From the IMG/VR virus record IMGVR_UViG_3300044846_001183, positions 1 through 24,389 of that record: a DNA stretch of 24,389 bases; one strand, written 5' to 3'. Positions 3-19,819 of this stretch are shown piece by piece. Each line of letters starts with the position of its first letter. The stretch's first letter is position 1. The position numbers and the translations under genes were made by a program. The DNA is from a virus. The notes beneath the pieces are model-generated. The model worked only from the letters and a program-made list of their open reading frames with translations, was not told where the DNA came from and did not search any database.

Positions 3-68
3 GTCGCATTGATCGCCACAGGCGTAGCCTTAGCTGCGCTCGGCTATACGCTAGGAGATCGTAAGTGA
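3..68 (+). CDS. C-terminal end of a small membrane protein (partial, 5' end outside window)
   Basis: The frame starting at base 3 is open to a TGA at 66-68 and encodes about 21 residues: a hydrophobic run (VALIATGVALAALGY) followed by a short charged tail (TLGDRK). This looks like the last membrane helix of a protein that begins before the window. Its stop overlaps the GTG start of the portal gene as GTGA, the coupling used throughout this genome. The family cannot be told from so little. A gene just before the portal in this layout would often be the terminase, but the hydrophobic tail argues against that. Confidence 0.45.
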   Translation, partial: VALIATGVALAALGYTLGDRK

Positions 69-1246
69 GCATCCTCCGTCGCCTTCTAGGCACCGAGCAA
101 CGCAATGTTTCTGGCGGACAGTGGCTCAGCGATAAGCCAGCCGAATCGTCAGCCGGAGTGCAACTCAACCAGCAGAATGCAACATCGATTGGCGCGTTGT
201 ACGCGGCCGTCAAGTTGTACGCCGACACTGTTGCCAGCCTTCCAGTTGGTGCCTTCATCCGCGATGGCGGCGTGCGCCGACCGGTGACGCGCCCACTCTG
301 GCTAGAGCGACCGATCCCTGCGAACCCAAACTACACAGGGTTCCAGATGCGCCACGCCGTTGTGTCAAGCCTATTGCTTGACGGCAACGCCTTCATCCTG
401 TTCCTGACTGACCGCCTTGGCGATGTCGTTGAGACGCGCGTGCTTGACCCACAGAAGGTTGAGATTCGGATGGACGAGATGGGCGCACCGATCTACATCG
501 TGTCCACTGGCGACACCGCGTTCAGCGTTGGACCTGATCAGATGGTGCATATCCCACTCTTCGCCACCGCTGGCACGATGCGCGGAATGTCTCCTGTCGA
601 GCATCACCGCACGACACTCGGACTCGCCTCTGCCACGCAACTTTACGCTGCGAAGTTCTACGAGAATGGCGCTGCTCCAAGTGCCGTCATCAAGGTGCCA
701 GGCGAGTTGACGCAGGATGTCGCCGACTCTCTCCGCGCATCGTTCAGCCGTCGCCACGAAGGCGTAGAGAAGATGCACAAGATTGCGGTGCTTACCGGCG
801 GCGCAGACTTCCAGCAGATGAGCGCCAAGATCAGCGATATGCAGTTGGTAGAGACGATGCACTGGGGCGTTGAGTCCATCGCTCGTATCTACGGCGTGCC
901 ACTCCACCTGCTCCAGTACCCAGGCGGCAACACCTCTTACAGCAGCGTTGAAGTGATCAGCATCGAGTGGCTGCGCCTAGGGCTTGGTCCACTCATTGCG
1001 CGCATTGAGGCAGGGCTTCAGCGCCTGATCGTTGGCAACACGACCTTCATCAAGTTCAACATTGACGGCCTGCTCCGCCCTACGACCAAGGAGCGAATGG
1101 ACTCCTACGCAGTCGCGCTCAACTCAGGCATCCTCAATCTCAATGAGGTGCGCGCGCTTGAGGACCGACCACCGCTCCCAGTTGGCGGCGACGAGTTCTG
1201 GAAGCCGCTCAATATCGGCACCGTAGGCAAGGAGCCTGGCGCGTGA
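65..1246 (+). CDS. Portal protein, HK97 family
   Basis: The portal forms the dodecameric ring at the unique capsid vertex through which DNA is packaged and ejected, and to which the tail connects. The 393 residues match the usual size of HK97-type portals. Family features visible are the N-terminal stretch with SIGALYAAVKLYADTVASLP (about residues 40-60), a central helix-rich wing domain, and a segment near residues 273-297 with IYGVPLHLL and NTSYSSVE, the characteristic gvPp...ysnvE region. The GTG start at 65 is supported by AGGAG at 53-57, seven bases upstream. The stop overlaps the next start (GTGA), so portal and protease are translationally coupled. Gene order portal, protease, capsid supports the call. 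Confidence 0.93.
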   Translation: MSILRRLLGTEQRNVSGGQWLSDKPAESSAGVQLNQQNATSIGALYAAVKLYADTVASLPVGAFIRDGGVRRPVTRPLWLERPIPANPNYTGFQMRHAVVSSLLLDGNAFILFLTDRLGDVVETRVLDPQKVEIRMDEMGAPIYIVSTGDTAFSVGPDQMVHIPLFATAGTMRGMSPVEHHRTTLGLASATQLYAAKFYENGAAPSAVIKVPGELTQDVADSLRASFSRRHEGVEKMHKIAVLTGGADFQQMSAKISDMQLVETMHWGVESIARIYGVPLHLLQYPGGNTSYSSVEVISIEWLRLGLGPLIARIEAGLQRLIVGNTTFIKFNIDGLLRPTTKERMDSYAVALNSGILNLNEVRALEDRPPLPVGGDEFWKPLNIGTVGKEPGA

Positions 1247-2757
1247 TCGAGATCTACGACATTGACAATACGCTCACGACCGGTGGCGACACGCCACGCC
1301 AAGACCTGATCGACTACATCAAGACCGATGTACAAGATGAGGGCGTGCGGATCTTCATTGTCAGCGGCCGTCCAATCAGCCGCCTTGCAGAGACCGAGAA
1401 GTGGCTGCGCGATAATGGCGTGCCATATGAAGAGATCTATCTGAACGACTTCAGCGAGACCCCTGGACCGAATGTCATTGAGGCATTCAAGGCGTACAAG
1501 TACGCCAAGATTGTTGAGGAGTACGGACTCGCAGAGATCGGCTATGTCGTTGACGATTCAGCAGAGGCTCGCAGCAACGCTGAAGGTATGGGCATCAAGG
1601 CATATACCGCACAGGAGTTGCTCGCCGCCGAGGCGCTACACGGCGCAGAGGGCGAAGATGATTCCGACGAGGATCGCGCGGTCTACCAGGTGCCTGACTA
1701 CATCCGCAATGCAGCAGCGCGCGGATTGTCCTTCGTGGAGGACGGTCTCGGTGGCGATGGCTTGCAGGCAGAGACGATCTCTGACGCGCGCGAACTGGCC
1801 GCAGGGCGAGCCGATAGCGACAAGGTGCTACGCACCGCCGCCTGGATTCGCCGCCATCGCGGCGACTGGGAAGGCGTACCGCAGAATGAGGACGAAGATA
1901 ACGCAGACTTCCCAGGTCCAGGTGCCGTCGCTGGCTTCCTCTGGGGTGTGGAAACGACTGACCGCGAAGCAACTGATCGCGTACTCTCGTGGGCAGATGC
2001 TTTGATCGCAGGCGAAGATAGGGAGATTGTGGATATGAAAGAGAAAGAAACTCGCTCGGTACCAATCGGTGAGTTCCGACTTGCTGAGGCTGGTGCTGAC
2101 GGTCAGCGAACCTTCACCGGATATGCGAGTATCTGGAACAGCGCATCCGCTGGACTTCCCTTCGAGGAGAAGATCGCGCCGAACGCATTCAAGCGTTCGC
2201 TGTCGCGCGCTGCCGCAGGGCAGAAGATTATCGCCTTCCTCTTTGGTCACGACGAGACGCGCGCCCTTGCCACCACGGCAAGCGGTCGCCTTCAGTTGAC
2301 TGAGGATGAGACTGGCCTTCGCGTAGAAGCCAAACTCGACCCAGCCGATCCAGACGCAGCCAAGGTCATCTCGATGCTGACGCACGAGAGCGCCGCTGCC
2401 GGTATGTCGTTCGGCTTCCAGAAGGTTCAGGATGCGTGGGATGGCAACAACCGCACAATCAAGGAAGCCAACCTCTTTGAGGTGAGCATCCTTGCCGCTG
2501 GTGGTCAGACCCCTGCCTACCCTGCGACCCTTGGACTCACGGCAATCCGCCAGGTCACTGCGCCGAAGATCGGCGTAGATGCTGACGCACTGGTTGCCAC
2601 ACTCGATAGCATCAAGGCTGGACGCGAACTGTCCACCGAGGAAGTTGCTGTCATTGACGCTGTCCGTTCCAAACTCGCGCCAAAGCCTGTAGGGATTGAT
2701 CCGTCAATTGCCTCTGCTTTGCTGACGATTTCGGCGGCAGAAGGTGACGCACTCTAG
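1243..2757 (+). CDS. HAD-like phosphatase / phage head module / prohead protease fusion
   Basis: This 504-residue protein has three parts. Residues 1-128 look like a HAD-superfamily phosphatase: motif I is DIDNT (D6, D8), motif II is VSGRP (S41), and an acidic motif VVDDS (D104, D105) follows. Residues 146-260 carry a module with AxxWIRRHRGD (around 200-208) and PGPGAVAGFLWG (224-235), which I recall from other phage head-morphogenesis proteins. Residues 270-437 are an HK97-type prohead protease, with likely catalytic His336 in LFGHDE and Ser389 in GMSFGF. The protease would cleave the delta domain of the capsid protein encoded next. The GTG start overlaps the portal stop. An in-frame ATG at 2035 with its own SD could produce the protease alone. 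Most relatives encode only the protease at this locus, so the fusion is unusual. The protease assignment is strong, the HAD assignment good, and the middle module rests on recollection. Confidence 0.9.
   Translation: MIEIYDIDNTLTTGGDTPRQDLIDYIKTDVQDEGVRIFIVSGRPISRLAETEKWLRDNGVPYEEIYLNDFSETPGPNVIEAFKAYKYAKIVEEYGLAEIGYVVDDSAEARSNAEGMGIKAYTAQELLAAEALHGAEGEDDSDEDRAVYQVPDYIRNAAARGLSFVEDGLGGDGLQAETISDARELAAGRADSDKVLRTAAWIRRHRGDWEGVPQNEDEDNADFPGPGAVAGFLWGVETTDREATDRVLSWADALIAGEDREIVDMKEKETRSVPIGEFRLAEAGADGQRTFTGYASIWNSASAGLPFEEKIAPNAFKRSLSRAAAGQKIIAFLFGHDETRALATTASGRLQLTEDETGLRVEAKLDPADPDAAKVISMLTHESAAAGMSFGFQKVQDAWDGNNRTIKEANLFEVSILAAGGQTPAYPATLGLTAIRQVTAPKIGVDADALVATLDSIKAGRELSTEEVAVIDAVRSKLAPKPVGIDPSIASALLTISAAEGDAL
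2020..2037 (+). promoter_or_regulatory. Internal RBS and ATG start for a stand-alone prohead protease
   Basis: AGGGAG at 2020-2025 lies nine bases before an in-frame ATG at 2035 (Met265 of the fusion). The ATG falls exactly at the boundary between the middle module and the protease domain. Initiation here would give a 240-residue protein starting MKEKETRSVPIGEF, a typical beginning and length for an HK97-type prohead protease. SD quality and position are seen; use of the site is inferred. Confidence 0.5.
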
Positions 2758-2859: not shown

Positions 2860-4011
2860 ATGCAGACAATGTCTGACATCGCAAAACTCGCTGACAAGCG
2901 AGCGCATCTTTTGGTTGAGGCTCGCGGCATTGCCGTAGAGGCAGCCGACAAGGGAATCGCCCTTGAGGGTGAAGACAAGGCTCGTTTCGAGCGTCTCGTT
3001 GCTGAGGCTGGCGTGATTGCCGAAGCCCTCCGCGCCGAGAAGGCTTCTGACGAGGCTCGTAAGTCGGCTGACGAGGCTCGCGCTGAGTTCGCCGCTGTTG
3101 TTGCTCCAACGGCTCCTAAGGCCGCTTCGGACAATGACCGCCTTCGTGCAATCGGTATGGCTGCTGGTGTTGATACTTTCGAGTATCGTGACATCACAAC
3201 CTCAACCGGTCTCGGAAACCCAGTGTCTGTCTTCAACCGCGTCAATGTGGTTGCTGGCCAGATCAACCCATTCATCAACCCAGCGGTTGTGGATGTAATC
3301 CAGGTTGCGACCGGCAACAACATCAAGTTCCCAACTGTGACCGCGCTCGGCACGACGGCTGGTTCAGTCGCCGAAGCCGGCACGATTACGGAAGATGACT
3401 TCACCGGTTCGGCTCTGAGCCTTACCCCAGTGAAGTACGCAGTTCTTGTCCAGATCTCGGACGAGTTGATCCAGGACGCAGCGTTTGACATTGCGTCGAT
3501 GATCAGCGAGGCCGCTGGCCAGGAGATGGCGATTGCCCACGGCTCAGCCGCGAGCACCGCTGTTGTAACCGCTGCTGGTACCGGTGGAACGGCCGCAGGC
3601 ACCGTCGTATACACATACGCGGAACTTGTTGCCCTTCAGTACTCGGTCAAGCAGCAGTACCGAAACGCCGCGAAGTCAGGCTTCCTGATGAGCGACACGG
3701 CCCTTGGACAGATCCTTGGCACGACTTCATCGTCGCTGCCTTTGTTCCAGCCAGGCGGACAGGGTGGCGTTGATCGTCTCCTTGGCAAGCCTGTCTACAC
3801 GGCTCCTGGCATTGCGGTCCCTGCGACCGGTGCTAAGGCTGTGCTGTTCGGTGACCTTGGTCAGATCAAGACCGCCATCGTTGGCGGCGTGACCGTTGAG
3901 GCTTCACGCGAGTACGCGTGGAACCTTGGCCTTGTTTCGTACAAGGTTCAGGTCCGTGGCGCGACCGGACTTGCACAGCCTTCGGCTGTCAAGTTCCTGA
4001 AGAACGCCTAA
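2860..4011 (+). CDS. Major capsid protein, HK97 fold, with N-terminal delta domain
   Basis: This is the structural subunit of the icosahedral head. The first ~100 residues are Ala/Glu/Lys/Arg-rich and strongly helical, as expected for the scaffolding delta domain that the adjacent protease removes. After it comes a typical mature N-terminus region (DITTSTGLGNPVSVFNRV) and an HK97-like body with IKFPTVTALGTTAGSVAEAGTI and, near the end, VTVEASREYAWNLGLVSYKVQVRGATG. Candidate starts are ATG 2860 (SD GGAG five bases upstream) and ATG 2869 (AAAGG nine bases upstream). ATG 2845 lies in a hairpin arm and has no good SD. At 384 residues the length fits the family once the delta domain is counted. 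Two hairpins follow the stop. Confidence 0.95.
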   Translation: MQTMSDIAKLADKRAHLLVEARGIAVEAADKGIALEGEDKARFERLVAEAGVIAEALRAEKASDEARKSADEARAEFAAVVAPTAPKAASDNDRLRAIGMAAGVDTFEYRDITTSTGLGNPVSVFNRVNVVAGQINPFINPAVVDVIQVATGNNIKFPTVTALGTTAGSVAEAGTITEDDFTGSALSLTPVKYAVLVQISDELIQDAAFDIASMISEAAGQEMAIAHGSAASTAVVTAAGTGGTAAGTVVYTYAELVALQYSVKQQYRNAAKSGFLMSDTALGQILGTTSSSLPLFQPGGQGGVDRLLGKPVYTAPGIAVPATGAKAVLFGDLGQIKTAIVGGVTVEASREYAWNLGLVSYKVQVRGATGLAQPSAVKFLKNA

Positions 4012-11984: not shown

Positions 11985-12148
11985 CGCCACGCCAGATTGA
12001 TCAATTGATCGAGCGGCTGGACTCTCACTCTGCCAAGTTGGATCAGGTGCGGTCGGATGTGGACAAACTCAAAGGAGGACTAGTGGCTATCGGTGCGCTG
12101 TTGTTCAGCGTACTTGTGCCGCTACTCGCATCGCTGCTCGCTAAGTGA
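11981..12148 (+). CDS. XhlA-like holin candidate (coiled coil plus one TM segment)
   Basis: The 55-residue protein begins at ATG 11981, overlapping the fibre stop. Residues 1-32 are charged and helical with heptad-like hydrophobics (IDQLIERLDSHSAKLDQVRSDVDKL). Residues 33-54 form a hydrophobic helix (GLVAIGALLFSVLVPLLASLL) ending in Lys. This layout is that of XhlA/hemolysin-type phage proteins that support lysis, and the position at the start of the lysis cassette agrees. The stop overlaps the GTG of the next gene. A good SD cannot be seen, so coupling to the fibre gene is likely. Confidence 0.72.
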   Translation: MTPRQIDQLIERLDSHSAKLDQVRSDVDKLKGGLVAIGALLFSVLVPLLASLLAK

Positions 12149-13281
12149 AGCGCGCCGCGTTCCCACTGCTGGGGATCATCTTCAGCACGCTCATCTTCCT
12201 GCCCATCGTGCGCGCTGAGGATCTGCCACAGCAGGGTGTGACGATGACGGTCTACCCAGAGATGTCGTGGCCGTTCGAGCCGTGGGTCACGCCACCGACA
12301 AGCGAGCCGTGCTACTCCGCCGTGGTGCCAAACATCGACTACGACTGGGGTGGCGCGCCTGCCGCAGAGGGCTGTCCAGGTGATCTCTTTATGGTCCACT
12401 TCAGCGGCTGGCTTACGGTGCCAGAAAGCGGCCAGTGGGAGTTCCTCAACTGGAGCGACGATGGCTGGAGGATGACGCTAGGCGGCGTGCTGACCATTGA
12501 TGACTGGAACTTCCACGGCTGCGGCGGTCACTGGTCAGGACCGAATGAGGGCTACTCGCAACTCGTCGCAGGTCAGTCCTACGCGCTCGACATCTGGATG
12601 TTTGAGTGGGGCGGTGGCGCGTGTGCGCGCCTGGACTACGGATCGCCAAGCGGATACGGCGTTGTGCCAACTGAGTGGCTGACTACCAGCGCACTCCCAT
12701 CGCCAGAACCATCGGCTGAACCATCTCCGAGTGTTGAACCAAGTCCTGAGCCGTCGCCGAGCGAAGAGCCGTCGCCGTCTCCAAGTCCAAGTCAGGAGCC
12801 ATCCTATGAACCTTCACCTACACCAACCCCAGAGCCGTCACCGACTGCCACACCCCAGCCGTCGCCCACGGCCGAGCCGTCGCCAGTTCCTACTCCGACA
12901 GTCACCCCTACTCCTACTCCCACTCCTGTACCTACTCCTGAACCGTCAGTAGAACCAACACCGACACCTGAGCCGACCGTGGAGCCAACACCGTCGCCGT
13001 CACCGTCACCAGATAACATTGCAGAAGAAGCAGCAGCGGTAGTCGGTGAGACTATTGCGGCAGTGAGCGAAGCAGTTGGAGAGGCGGCAGCCGCAGTAGC
13101 GGAAACCGTCTCACAGGCTGTTGAAGCCATCGCCAATCTCGGCAAGGATCTCTCTCCGGTCGAGAAGCAGGAGGCTGCGCCGGTCGCCATCGCCATCATC
13201 GTTGGTCAGGTAGCCAGTGCGGCCGTCGCCGCAGCATCGACCGCAGCCGCTGCAAGTGCAGCCAGAAAGGCAACTAAATGA
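12145..13281 (+). CDS. Exported PA14-domain protein with Pro/Ser/Glu-rich linker
   Basis: The 378 residues comprise four parts. Residues 1-24 are a signal peptide (basic start, hydrophobic LLGIIFSTLIFLPIV, probable cleavage after VRA). Residues 55-175 form a PA14-like domain: FMVHFSGWLTVPESGQWEF, then SDDGW (104-108) and TLGGVLTIDDW, the usual metal-binding loop and hairpin of PA14 carbohydrate-binding folds. Residues ~184-291 are a low-complexity linker of Pro with Ser, Thr, Glu and Val. The last ~87 residues are Ala/Val-rich and helical, with a hydrophobic segment (APVAIAIIVGQVASAAVAAA) and a basic tail. PA14 domains often bind sugars or stabilise cell-wall proteins. Encoded between two holin candidates, it could act on the host envelope at lysis, mark the infected cell surface, or be a virion component. 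GTG 12145 overlaps the previous stop. Confidence 0.82.
   Translation: MKRAAFPLLGIIFSTLIFLPIVRAEDLPQQGVTMTVYPEMSWPFEPWVTPPTSEPCYSAVVPNIDYDWGGAPAAEGCPGDLFMVHFSGWLTVPESGQWEFLNWSDDGWRMTLGGVLTIDDWNFHGCGGHWSGPNEGYSQLVAGQSYALDIWMFEWGGGACARLDYGSPSGYGVVPTEWLTTSALPSPEPSAEPSPSVEPSPEPSPSEEPSPSPSPSQEPSYEPSPTPTPEPSPTATPQPSPTAEPSPVPTPTVTPTPTPTPVPTPEPSVEPTPTPEPTVEPTPSPSPSPDNIAEEAAAVVGETIAAVSEAVGEAAAAVAETVSQAVEAIANLGKDLSPVEKQEAAPVAIAIIVGQVASAAVAAASTAAAASAARKATK
12700..13012 (+). repeat. Low-complexity Pro/Ser/Glu/Thr coding repeat
   Basis: Short irregular repeats built from cc(a/g)-agt/tcg-cc(a/g) and gag-ccg-tcg units encode the PxP linker of the PA14 protein. Unit length drifts and synonymous codons alternate, so the repeat is selected at the protein level or grows by slippage. 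It is not a CRISPR or a direct-repeat regulatory element. Confidence 0.8.
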
Positions 13282-15625: not shown

Positions 15626-15753
15626 GGTGCGCTTACTGCAAGGGTCCAGTCAAGACCAAGTCAACGCAGAAGCGCGACCAGATCTGCGGCACCTGCTGGG
15701 CGCTGTTGATCCAGATCGCTAAGAGCCAGCCAGTATTTGGGAGGACACAATGA
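15622..15753 (+). CDS. CxxC...CxxC microprotein
   Basis: A 43-residue frame with ATG 15622 overlaps genes on both sides by ATGA. It has CAYC at 3-6 and CGTC at 22-25 separated by a basic stretch (KGPVKTKSTQKRDQ), the minimal plan of a zinc ribbon, then a short helix (WALLIQIAKSQ). It may bind nucleic acid or a host protein; no family is recognised. The overlaps on both sides and codon choice like its neighbours support its being real. Confidence 0.62.
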   Translation: MRCAYCKGPVKTKSTQKRDQICGTCWALLIQIAKSQPVFGRTQ

Positions 15754-16712
15754 GCAAGCGCTTTGAGTTTGTATCCGCGCCGCAGCGGAGTCCAGAGTGG
15801 TTTGAGATGCGTAAGAGTGGCATCACCGCCACCGGCATTACCGCCATCAACGGCTCGTCGCCGTACAAGACCGCCTATCGACTCTGGGCGGAGTTGACAG
15901 GTCAGGTCGGTGAGCAGCAAGTCGGCGCAGCAGCCCAGCGTGGGCAGTTGCTAGAGCAGGCAGTCGCCGACTACTACACCGCAGAGACTGGCAAGAAGTT
16001 GCGCAAGAGCAACGGCATCGTTCGCCTGAAGGAGCATCCGTGGGCGATGGCATCGCTCGACCGCACCATCGTTGGCGACACCGACGGTCTCGTAGAGATC
16101 AAGACCTCAACGAGCAGCCGCTGGCAGTTGTACCCAGTGCCACCTGAGTATGTCGATCAGGTGCAGTGGCAGATGTTCATCACAGGCGCGTCGTACTGCG
16201 ATGTCGCCGTGCTGCTCTCTGGCTTGGTATTCCGCATTGAGCGCGTGGAGGCTGACCCTGTCTACCAGACGCAACTGTTCGACAAGGCCGTCCTGTTCCG
16301 CGAGTTGGTGCAGTCCAAGACTCCGCCACCTCTGACCGGCAACGACAGCGACACGCTCGCTGAAGTCAAGCCGCAGAGCAACAACACCTACGCCGTGGCT
16401 GATCCGCAACTGGATCACATTGCGCGCCTCTACATCGAAGCAAAGGTAGAGGCAGAGGCTGCCGATGCAGCGCTGAAGGAGATGGCAATCGCCATCAAGG
16501 AAGCCATCGCAGACGGCGAAGGAGTCAAGGGGCAGGGTTGGCTTGCCACCTGGAAGACCAACAAGAGCAGCGTCAAGGTGGACTGGGAGAGCATCGCGGA
16601 TGTTCTGCGAACGGTTGCTCCAGACACCTACGGTGAGGCGATCACACGCTTCACCTCAGAGAAGCCAGGGGCGCGAGTATTCCGCGTCTTCGGTAAGGAG
16701 GATCAGGCGTGA
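15750..16712 (+). CDS. YqaJ / lambda-type exonuclease (recombination)
   Basis: A 5'-3' double-strand exonuclease that makes single-stranded tails for annealing. The 320 residues show family landmarks in order: RSPEW (13-17) with a helix RKSGITATGITAINGSSPY, RGQLLEQAVADYY with Glu69 or nearby, SLDR (Asp104), and the VEIKTS catalytic core (Glu116, Lys118) followed by YVDQVQWQM (134-142). Residues beyond ~220 form a coiled-coil-like helical C-terminal part, common in phage homologues. A Rad52-like annealing protein two genes on makes the classic exonuclease-SSAP pair. GGGAGGA at 15739-15745 is a good SD for ATG 15750. Confidence 0.92.
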   Translation: MSKRFEFVSAPQRSPEWFEMRKSGITATGITAINGSSPYKTAYRLWAELTGQVGEQQVGAAAQRGQLLEQAVADYYTAETGKKLRKSNGIVRLKEHPWAMASLDRTIVGDTDGLVEIKTSTSSRWQLYPVPPEYVDQVQWQMFITGASYCDVAVLLSGLVFRIERVEADPVYQTQLFDKAVLFRELVQSKTPPPLTGNDSDTLAEVKPQSNNTYAVADPQLDHIARLYIEAKVEAEAADAALKEMAIAIKEAIADGEGVKGQGWLATWKTNKSSVKVDWESIADVLRTVAPDTYGEAITRFTSEKPGARVFRVFGKEDQA

Positions 16713-17227
16713 CCTACGCGCCGCGTGGCGTGCTGTATCAACTCACTGACGCTGAGGTGGTAGAGGCGCGACTCGTCGGAGACGGCCGCAATATGGCAAA
16801 CCGCAACAGCAAGGACAAGTCTTATTACCACCGCGAAAAGATGGAGGACGACACGGTGGCATCATTCGCAGCCGCTACTGCCGAGTGTGCAGTGGCACGA
16901 GTCTTCAATGCCGAGTGGCACGCCAAGGTCTGGCCGGCAGGTGAGCATCATCTGCATAGCGACGAGCCAGATGTGGGCGAGAACATTGAGGTCAAGCGCG
17001 TTCGCAATCCTGACGCTGGGCTAGTGGTCAGGGAGAAGGATCGCACGCTAGGGCGCTATGTCGTTCTGGCGTATCCCATCCCTGAGACTGGCTACACGCA
17101 GGTCGATGTGATCGGCTGGATCAAGGCTGACAAGGGTTGGCAGGTTGGCCGCGATAGCGGAGAGGGGTATGTGCGAGTTCCCCAGAAACACTTGCGCGAA
17201 GTTCCTAAGGAGGGAAGCAATGAGTAA
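16709..17227 (+). CDS. PD-(D/E)XK-like phage protein
   Basis: The 172-residue protein carries a pattern that looks like a small restriction-endonuclease fold: an N-terminal helix ending in AAATAECAVARVFNAEW (Glu59), then DVG (Asp88) and a strand IEVKR (Glu94, Lys96), followed by strands (DAGLVVREKD, RYVVLAYPIP, TQVDVIGWI). I recall similar uncharacterised proteins in phage recombination operons. Sitting between the exonuclease and the annealing protein, it is probably part of DNA processing. Catalytic activity is inferred from the motif only. GTG 16709 overlaps the exonuclease stop. Confidence 0.65.
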   Translation: MTYAPRGVLYQLTDAEVVEARLVGDGRNMANRNSKDKSYYHREKMEDDTVASFAAATAECAVARVFNAEWHAKVWPAGEHHLHSDEPDVGENIEVKRVRNPDAGLVVREKDRTLGRYVVLAYPIPETGYTQVDVIGWIKADKGWQVGRDSGEGYVRVPQKHLREVPKEGSNE

Positions 17228-17912
17228 GCAAATCGCAGCAGCGCTCGCAGCGCCTTTCACCGGTACGGATCTGAAGCAGCGCCCAGGGCGCGGCGGAATG
17301 ACCTTCACCTACGCAGATGCACGAGCCGTGGCACAGCGCCTAGACGATGTGCTGTCTATCGCAGGGTGGCAGTTCGAGGTCAAGGTCGCTGACGCTCAGC
17401 GCTTCGTGGTACACGGCACCCTGATCGCCGTGATCGATGGCGTCACCACAGTCAAGCAGGACTTTGGCTATCCCAACAGCGCGCAGGATGACGAGCCACT
17501 CAAGTCAGCAGCAAGCGACGCTTTGCGCCGCTGCGCTGCCCAGATCGGTGTGGGTCGGTCTCTTTATGCGTCAGGCACAGGCGCGAGCCTCTCCGTGGCT
17601 CCTAGACCCCTCTCCGTTGATTCTGTGAGGGTATCTCAGCCGTCGGTTTCCACGAACGATGTGGCCGTAGCAGCAGCAATGCTGTTTGCAGAGGGCGAAT
17701 GCCCAGACCACCGCACCGCTTGGTCGTTCAAGCCAGCAGGGGTCTCCAAACTTGGTCGTGAGTACCAGGCGTTCTACGCCTGTGGCGGCAAGGACGGCGG
17801 AGGCCAGTTCTGCAAGCGTAAGCCGAGCATCGCCTGGGTCAACGCCCAGACCGCGCCGACCGGCGAGCCTGAGCGCACCGATACGAGCGACCTGGAGTCA
17901 TTGCCGTTCTAG
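17220..17912 (+). CDS. Rad52-like single-strand annealing protein with C-terminal zinc motif
   Basis: It would anneal the single strands made by the exonuclease. The 230 residues begin at ATG 17220, with TAAGGAGG at 17206-17213. Rad52-family features are the N-terminal FTYADARAVAQRLDDVLSIAGWQFEV and the conserved PLKSAASDALRRCAAQIGVGRSLY (92-116). After a Ser/Val-rich linker comes a C-terminal unit with CPDH, a basic stretch (SFKPAGVSKLGREYQAFYAC) and a further Cys (QFCKRKPS), which looks like a small zinc-binding domain. The end is acidic (DTSDLESLPF), similar to the tails by which annealing and SSB proteins recruit partners. An in-frame upstream GTG at 17145 is rejected because it lacks an SD and lies inside the previous gene. 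Confidence 0.87.
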   Translation: MSKQIAAALAAPFTGTDLKQRPGRGGMTFTYADARAVAQRLDDVLSIAGWQFEVKVADAQRFVVHGTLIAVIDGVTTVKQDFGYPNSAQDDEPLKSAASDALRRCAAQIGVGRSLYASGTGASLSVAPRPLSVDSVRVSQPSVSTNDVAVAAAMLFAEGECPDHRTAWSFKPAGVSKLGREYQAFYACGGKDGGGQFCKRKPSIAWVNAQTAPTGEPERTDTSDLESLPF

Positions 17913-18831: not shown

Positions 18832-19229
18832 ACGAAGCGGAGTTATGCGAGTACCTCAAAGGAACCTTCCCAGACTGCAAGAAGGTTGACGAGACCTACA
18901 GCACCTGGGATGTGACCTTTAATGCTGACACCAAGATCGGAGAGATCGCCTACTACGCAGAGTTGAAGTGCCGAAAGACGCACTACGACTCGCTGCTGAT
19001 CGAAGAGGACAAGTACAAGCGCCTGATCTCGGCGGCCGTAGCCAACGGCAGGCGAGCGGTCTACATCTGCTCTACGCCACAGGGCATCTGGGGATTCGAC
19101 CTGGAGAAGGTTGGTCAGCCGTTCTGGAAAGATGAGTTGATGCCTGCCACGACCGAGTTTGAGAACACCGAGAAGGTCATCAAGAGCGTCGGCTATCTGC
19201 CGGTCGCACACGGAAGGAGGCTGAAGTGA
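18828..19229 (+). CDS. PD-(D/E)XK nuclease-like protein
   Basis: The 133-residue protein starts at ATG 18828 (ATGA overlap; CAGGAGGG at 18812-18819 as SD). It shows a typical nuclease core: an N-terminal helix, TWDVTF (Asp28), a strand with YAELKCR (Glu45, Lys47), then SLLIEEDKYKRLISAA, with the frequently conserved downstream Lys, and strands RRAVYICSTPQ and GIWGFDLEKV. The fold resembles small phage resolvase or restriction-like proteins. Next to endonuclease VII and a nucleotide kinase, it is likely part of DNA processing or host DNA breakdown. Catalysis is inferred from the motif. Confidence 0.72.
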   Translation: MNEAELCEYLKGTFPDCKKVDETYSTWDVTFNADTKIGEIAYYAELKCRKTHYDSLLIEEDKYKRLISAAVANGRRAVYICSTPQGIWGFDLEKVGQPFWKDELMPATTEFENTEKVIKSVGYLPVAHGRRLK

Positions 19230-19819
19230 ACATCGCATTCGTGGGGCCGCAAGGCTCAGGCAAGTCAACGCTCGCGGCGATGCTAGAGCAGCGCCGTATG
19301 CATCCGTACACCGTGCTACCGATTGCAGAGACGATCCGCACCGTGGCTGCACTGGGCTATGGGGAGGACTTTGACAAGGGCAAGCAGTACAGCCAGCGCC
19401 GCCTGGGGCTTGATGTCGAAGTCTCCGGCCGTGAGATCTTGCAGGAGATCGGCGCACAACTGCGTGAGATCGACGCGTCGTTCTGGATCAAGGCGTGGCA
19501 CAGCGAGTACCTGAAGATCAAGAGCGCGAGCCGCCTAGTTGCGGTAGACGATGTACGGCTGCCGCTAGAGGCGCACTACCTTAGGCACCACATCCCAGGC
19601 ATCGTGATTGTCCGAGTCCACGCTACGGCGGAGGCTCGCACCCAGCGGCGTGGGGTGCTGCAAGGGGTCAGCGATGTGACCGAGTTTGGCTACCTCCAGA
19701 CCGAATACGATCTCCAGATCGACACAACAGACTTGACAGCGGACGACTCCTACGCGATCCTGCGTAAGCATATGGTGAATAACGGTCTTTGGCAGTCATC
19801 CTATGAGGAGGAATCGTGA
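19226..19819 (+). CDS. Deoxynucleoside monophosphate kinase-like P-loop protein
   Basis: This enzyme phosphorylates dNMPs to dNDPs for phage DNA synthesis. The 197 residues begin with a Walker A motif GPQGSGKST (7-15). The middle has SGREILQEIGAQLREIDASFWIKAW, a pattern I know from phage dNMP kinases, followed by a Walker B-like strand LVAVDDVRLPLEA and an Arg-rich lid (ATAEARTQRRGV). Acceptor specificity cannot be read from sequence; the T4 relative also handles hydroxymethyl-dCMP. The GTG start overlaps the previous stop and is preceded by GGAGG at 19214-19218. Confidence 0.82.
   Translation: MNIAFVGPQGSGKSTLAAMLEQRRMHPYTVLPIAETIRTVAALGYGEDFDKGKQYSQRRLGLDVEVSGREILQEIGAQLREIDASFWIKAWHSEYLKIKSASRLVAVDDVRLPLEAHYLRHHIPGIVIVRVHATAEARTQRRGVLQGVSDVTEFGYLQTEYDLQIDTTDLTADDSYAILRKHMVNNGLWQSSYEEES

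Follow-up and report, generated by a model that had tools for sequence, protein, structure and literature searches.

In lambda (C/Nu3) and Mu (I/Z), an in-frame internal start in the head protease gene gives rise to a second, C-terminal product. Iyer et al. (2017; PMC5512222) propose that multidomain effectors, with enzyme domains attached to head proteins, are packaged by phages by way of MuF and portal fusions, and PNK-HAD phosphatases have been placed in phage RNA repair by Iyer et al. (2021; PMC7824862). The literature searched, which was mostly openly accessible, gave no published account of a HAD-S78 fusion or of S78 genes with an internal start, and a term search of the text of PMC5512222 found neither haloacid-type domains nor such a fusion.

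In the window, which is the whole stretch of 24,389 nucleotides of viral DNA analysed here, a 504-aa ORF with the domain order HAD-MID-S78 is placed between the portal gene and the gene of an HK97-type capsid protein, and its GTG start and the TGA stop of the portal gene share a 4-nt overlap. This HAD-protease fusion had been claimed at 1243-2757 in an earlier note on this DNA, and it is confirmed by profiles, by the domains of an AlphaFold model and by its recurrence in other contig records. Coordinates of the features are listed in Table 1.

Table 1. Features of the head gene locus in the window, and further loci carrying MID
Feature	Position	Strand	Basis
Portal protein gene	65..1246	+	PF04860 E 8e-78, phrog_12; TGA stop at 1244-1246
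Shine-Dalgarno of long form, AAGGAG	1229..1234	+	Sequence; 8 nt upstream of GTG 1243
Long form HAD-MID-S78, 504 aa, GTG start	1243..2757	+	ORF call; full-length relatives among viral contigs
HAD domain, residues 1-128, T4 Pnkp 3'-phosphatase type	1243..1626	+	Profiles, predicted fold, motif residues
Linker, low confidence, residues 129-145	1627..1677	+	pLDDT < 50 at 135-144
MID, helical, residues 146-256	1678..2010	+	phrog_2859 E 8e-5; confident model
Internal Shine-Dalgarno AGGGAG	2020..2025	+	AGG conserved at Arg260
Internal start ATG, codon 265	2035..2037	+	Codon conservation; synonymous-shuffle z 11.5
Short form, free S78 prohead protease, 240 aa	2035..2757	+	PF04586, conserved putative triad, gp21 fold match
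Major capsid protein	2869..4011	+	PF05065 E 2e-29, phrog_10; alternative ATG at 2845
MID in head genes, further loci	L268:3992-6376, L269:3974-6484, L272:2986-5910		Relatives

The protease part has the Peptidase_S78 domain (PF04586) at residues 285-429 (E 6e-29), and T4 gp21 is a fold match of the modelled residues 266-420 (VIA-align Z 12.8). H336, S389 and E413 are invariant in 24 members and are taken as a putative catalytic triad. Thus the domain, the conserved His, Ser and acid, and the place between portal and capsid genes, by which an S78 prohead protease is recognized, are all found here. The short form compares with the 194-210 aa of canonical proteases, which likewise abut the portal gene, and the major capsid protein encoded downstream has a scaffold-type (delta-like) N-terminal region. 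Further along the window, a PA14-domain protein (E 7e-12) is found at 12145-13281, 3' of the structural genes, and a likely (deoxy)nucleotide monophosphate kinase (PF21448, under the cut-off) at 19226-19819, which could be a partner in the metabolism of nucleotides.

AlphaFold modelled the 504-aa protein as three domains, mostly with pLDDT > 90 and with low confidence at residues 135-144 and 260-266; the pTM of the full fusion was 0.38, as expected where domains sit on flexible linkers. The HAD fold claimed in the earlier note was recovered by this prediction: in VIA-align, the top match of the modelled residues 1-125 is the T4 Pnkp 3'-phosphatase (Z 16.3, 2.0 Å, 118 aligned residues, 22% identity; Z 16.3 for 1rc8 and 16.2 for 5uj0), followed by Pnkp1 (15.7) and the HADs of Nir2 and lipin (14-15). 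At the level of sequence, the polynucleotide kinase family phrog_415 matches the HAD with E 8e-11, PF08282 reached 21.3 bits (cut-off 20.9) in a scan of the domain by itself, and a search of PDB sequences with the HAD gave weak matches only. All four HAD motifs are present among 24 diverse members: D6, D8 and T10 of motif I (DxDx(T/V)), S41 and R43 with K83 and K86 for the Ser/Thr of motif II and the Lys of motif III, and D104 of motif IV are invariant, and the second acid of motif IV stands at 105 (DDS) or 106 (DND). The earlier note had listed complete D-x-D, Ser and DD motifs; the first two are invariant, and the last holds as DDS in the window clade, with DND in most other members. The structural alignment sets HAD residue 1 at residue 160 of the T4 Pnkp chain, and D6 and D8 would fall at D165 and D167, which we take to be its catalytic pair.

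The invariance of these residues argues for catalysis, and since the closest fold and profile are of T4 Pnkp type, the HAD leans toward a polynucleotide or nucleotide 3'-phosphatase. Median dN/dS is 0.136 for HAD, 0.146 for MID and 0.068 for S78, which indicates that the HAD is kept by purifying selection. A T4-like RNA repair with Pnkp and RNA ligase was considered as its setting and is not supported. RNA ligase (PF09414) is absent from the records of 17 relatives, which are 25-37 kb long and possibly incomplete, with controls positive, which makes a tRNA repair pair like that of T4 unlikely; together with the lack of a kinase domain in the fusion, this leaves the classical Pnkp repair pathway incomplete.

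The ATG at 2035 lies 9 nt behind its Shine-Dalgarno (SD) sequence. Codon 265 reads ATG in 78 of 81 close relatives and GTG in the other 3, and the codon of Arg260 is AGG in 80 of the 81, the exception being AAG, which gives AAGGAG; elsewhere in residues 130-504 of these relatives, AGG is used for 11 of about 1945 Arg codons. In distant lineages, the boundary residues and the phase and codons of the SD vary and a start codon with SD persists, TTG included, as in TTGAGGAGAACTCAATG, AAAAGGAGAGCAATGCAATG, CAGAGAGGTTCGATATG, GATAGGAGTATTTCAGAGATG and GCAGAGGTGATTGACTTG, and the group of Pontimonas phage phiPsal1 has GGAGAAGCCTTG or AGGAGTACCGTG. In most lineages the internal start codon is swapped only among ATG, GTG and TTG. 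For a shuffle test on 106 non-redundant genes, codons near the boundary were replaced by synonymous ones drawn according to the codon usage of the gene concerned. With a start codon plus an SD score of at least 5 as the criterion, the score being ad hoc and the sequences not independent, a start with SD was observed at the protease boundary in 105 of the 106 genes versus 48.5 ± 4.9 under the null (z 11.5), and z was -3.9 to 2.7 at 14 control positions of these genes. The canonical anti-SD is assumed in this scoring, and that of the host may differ; scans of genome contigs for a prophage match that would point to the host returned no relative. The sole gene of the 106 in which an internal start with SD was not detectable at the protease boundary is L128:853-2511.

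Judged by codon conservation and the shuffle test, the internal start is under strong constraint and is not a product of chance, and the SD-preceded ATG that the earlier note had placed at the protease boundary is thereby upheld. In most relatives whose fusion begins with the HAD, the long-form start has a GGAG-type SD and either overlaps the portal stop or lies right next to it. In L019:1907-3484, ORFs of 120 and 396 aa, the latter repetitive, separate a longer portal gene from the HAD fusion, and the fusion retains a GTG start despite these two intervening genes. Since a start with SD has been constrained and rebuilt at the boundary, one gene very probably makes both products, most likely a free protease of canonical size and a phosphatase-tagged protease. 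If the long ORF were mainly a vestige of module shuffling, with the internal start alone in use and the HAD without a role, a short form of canonical protease size and a nearly universal internal start would be accounted for; we consider this very improbable, because the HAD evolves with a dN/dS of 0.136, its motif residues are invariant, the long-form start is conserved and two HAD arrangements have been preserved intact.

These two arrangements were seen in a survey of viral contigs. The following scans have been used: one with the whole 504-aa protein, which gave 80 loci among the matches listed, and scans with the HAD alone and with the phiPsal1 protease, whose best matches gave loci L083-L234. 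The survey comprises 235 loci, about ten of which are second extracts of a contig already among them. Among the matches listed, 156 HAD-bearing ORFs were found in the 235 loci, and 155 of these also carry S78; in the remaining one (L136), the contig breaks off after MID. The search of other phages for the same domain order, proposed in the earlier note, thus gave 117 ORFs with HAD-MID-S78 among the matches listed, in addition to 13 HAD-S78 ORFs in which MID was not detectable, 20 whose HAD and MID are separated by extra modules, and 5 with PYF before HAD. About 27 more contigs, from a further scan, show the second HAD arrangement, which is associated with PYF, and almost all of them have the fusion; this HAD lies 3' of the PYF module (L179, L180, L207, L208, L229, L235-L265) and has come about either by independent acquisition or by shuffling.

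About 170 separate viral contig records carry the fusion among the matches listed, and a full-length protein of 501 aa with 55% identity has already been deposited as 'Prohead protease' (A0A6J5R419). An assembly error, which the earlier note had named as the outcome that would overturn its claim, is ruled out by these records, and the chance that the fusion is an assembly or sequencing artefact is negligible; among them, L250 alone is frameshifted (L250:3309-4908, inside S78, with 361 aa followed by 194 aa in another frame). The HAD-S78 fusion family is common in aquatic viromes.

The HAD occurs once, as the fusion, in 17 of 17 relatives with records of 25-37 kb. Since only the best matches were kept per scan, the survey does not show that the HAD is never free; standalone HAD-like phage proteins exist in BFVD and at locus L267. 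A late cytoplasmic 3'-phosphatase for nucleotides or nucleic acids, sharing the gene for economy and not entering virions in quantity, would agree with the role of Pnkp-type HADs of other phages as cytoplasmic repair enzymes (PMC7824862), and the closest matches in named phages are annotated as polynucleotide kinases. However, 155 of the 156 HAD-bearing ORFs among the matches listed also contain S78, most of them directly behind the portal gene, and a soluble enzyme needs no lasting fusion to a head-targeted protease when standalone HADs are available to phages; we therefore regard this explanation as improbable.

Comparison of individual loci with the window shows how the part upstream of the protease is exchanged. 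In L103, S78 and the C-terminus are 98% identical to the window, HAD is 52% identical and MID is missing; in L068, S78 is 100% identical, HAD is 40% identical, and DUF3721 and DUF5824 modules are added; in L073, S78 is 93% and MID 88% identical, and PYF and Cys modules replace the HAD. The breaks coincide with domain boundaries, that of L103 being near the internal start, and relatives have insertions of DUF3721, DUF5824 or Cys modules at residues 129-145. This pattern of identities indicates that the HAD is one of several exchangeable cassettes and not a fixed part. Small modules before MID, in variable order, are DUF3721, DUF5824, a Cys-rich module (weakly HiPIP-like) and Hva1_TUDOR (L024, L051, L067-L071, L077, L080 and L229). 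The window also encodes a YqaJ-like exonuclease (15750-16712) and a Rad52-type annealing protein (17145-17912), a recombination pair that could promote module exchange.

In a BLAST search with the window protein, phiPsal1 was the only named phage to match MID-S78, and it has no HAD. Its prohead protease (AUV61415) shares the MID-S78 core with 35% identity over residues 151-478, and both proteins have an N-terminal extension, which consists of PYF and Cys modules in phiPsal1 and of HAD in the window. A literature search found no virion proteome for phiPsal1.

The central phage module noted earlier is real and is found widely in head genes. A separate model of MID is helical with pLDDT 94.5; Foldseek gave no PDB match below E 1, the best VIA Z was 4.2, and a profile search with MID gave no match. 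Because of the missing PDB match no family is named for MID, and this does not prove a new fold. MID begins the protease-capsid ORFs of the cultured Roseobacter phages CRP-406 and CRP-821 and Synechococcus phages S-CBS1 and S-CBS3, and is also found in Vibrio phage proteins; it is therefore a recurrent head-gene module and, by this distribution, is widespread in head genes of aquatic phages.

Recurrence of MID at the start of head protease or protease-capsid ORFs of unrelated phages would suit another explanation, namely that the N-terminal cassettes, including the HAD, are assembly parts that time, anchor or inhibit the protease. The HAD would then act by binding, as a pro-domain or as a contact with portal or scaffold, and the two starts would determine how much protease is anchored and how much is free; coupling of the long form to portal translation also fits a portal-bound protease. 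This explanation is unlikely, though less so than the cytoplasmic enzyme, since the cassettes are replaced by unrelated domains while the protease remains 93-100% identical, the invariant HAD motif residues are more than binding alone would need, and MID can be absent, as in 13 HAD-S78 ORFs among the matches listed. That the cassette varies while the protease next to it hardly changes speaks against an essential role in assembly and in favour of cargo.

We consider the best explanation, at a little under even probability, to be a dual-product gene whose long form carries a Pnkp-type phosphatase as head cargo. It is supported by the architecture, the fold, the intact active site, purifying selection, the constrained dual start and cassette exchange. 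The joining of HAD to S78 in 155 of 156 ORFs among the matches listed and the place of MID at the opening of protease-capsid ORFs in cultured phages also speak for it, and head-packaged enzyme fusions are a known theme (PMC5512222). The reading in the earlier note is thus partly supported: its fusion, HAD fold, active site and dual start are borne out, and entry of the phosphatase into the prohead, release at maturation and action on DNA ends, nucleotides or head proteins would be candidate roles. Because the free protease has a separate internal start, the phosphatase may be loaded into the head, which is the best-supported mechanism; the HAD might instead serve for binding or have a purely cytoplasmic role. 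From these features we infer that both forms would be translated: ribosomes that start at GTG 1243, in coupling with the portal stop, would give HAD-MID-protease, and those that start at ATG 2035 the ordinary free prohead protease that carries out head maturation. The long form would reach the procapsid through its protease part, probably also through MID, with the active phosphatase riding on it as cargo, possibly to be released inside the capsid by self-cleavage in a flexible linker. The freed phosphatase would be delivered together with the DNA and would strip 3'-phosphates off the products of host nucleases, be they nucleic acid ends or nucleotides.

More tentatively, we suppose that the prohead protease is a general loading tag in tailed phages, by which swappable N-terminal modules are delivered with the genome and the internal start spares the free protease; the module here would be a Pnkp-type 3'-phosphatase for healing of nucleic acids or counter-defence in the first minute. 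One gene that gives a maturation protease and a protease-tagged cargo would be a genetically simple route, its cassettes being swapped by recombination where domains meet. Packaging of the phosphatase, if it occurs, would make head proteases a loading route alongside MuF and portal fusions. A Pnkp-type enzyme inside virions would also point to phages meeting 3'-phosphate ends made by nucleases at entry.

With HK97 gp4-type (Peptidase S78) and T4 gp21 proteases, the window gene shares the S78 domain and the place between portal and capsid genes, and its short form matches the canonical size of HK97-family proteases; unlike these, the gene adds about 264 N-terminal residues (HAD and MID) and an internal start. 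Its HAD is like the T4 Pnkp 3'-phosphatase (PNKP-type HAD; phrog_415, PF25109) in fold and HAD motifs. Unlike T4 Pnkp, it has no kinase domain and is joined to a head protease, and the second motif IV acid of the fusion HADs moves between DDS and DND; T4 Pnkp has an RNA ligase partner, whereas none was found for the fusion HAD in the relatives searched. Nested head genes with an internal in-frame start are common to lambda C/Nu3, Mu I/Z and the window, but the internal product is the scaffold in lambda and Mu and would be the protease in the window gene, and the N-terminal part of the latter is an exchangeable cassette, unlike in those phages. As in polyvalent proteins, unrelated domains encoded with packaging genes are combined in one polypeptide, the modules being HAD, MID and S78 and, in relatives, also DUF3721, DUF5824, Cys and TUDOR. 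Enzymatic domains on head proteins and a mosaic order are common to this fusion and to the polyvalent and MuF fusions of PMC5512222, in which polyvalent proteins are proposed to be packaged and injected; for the window fusion, packaging and injection would be putative traits. Packaged enzyme fusions and nested head genes are thus known already, and the combination seen here, a dual start in a head protease gene that bears an enzyme domain as a cassette, is a new variation on them.
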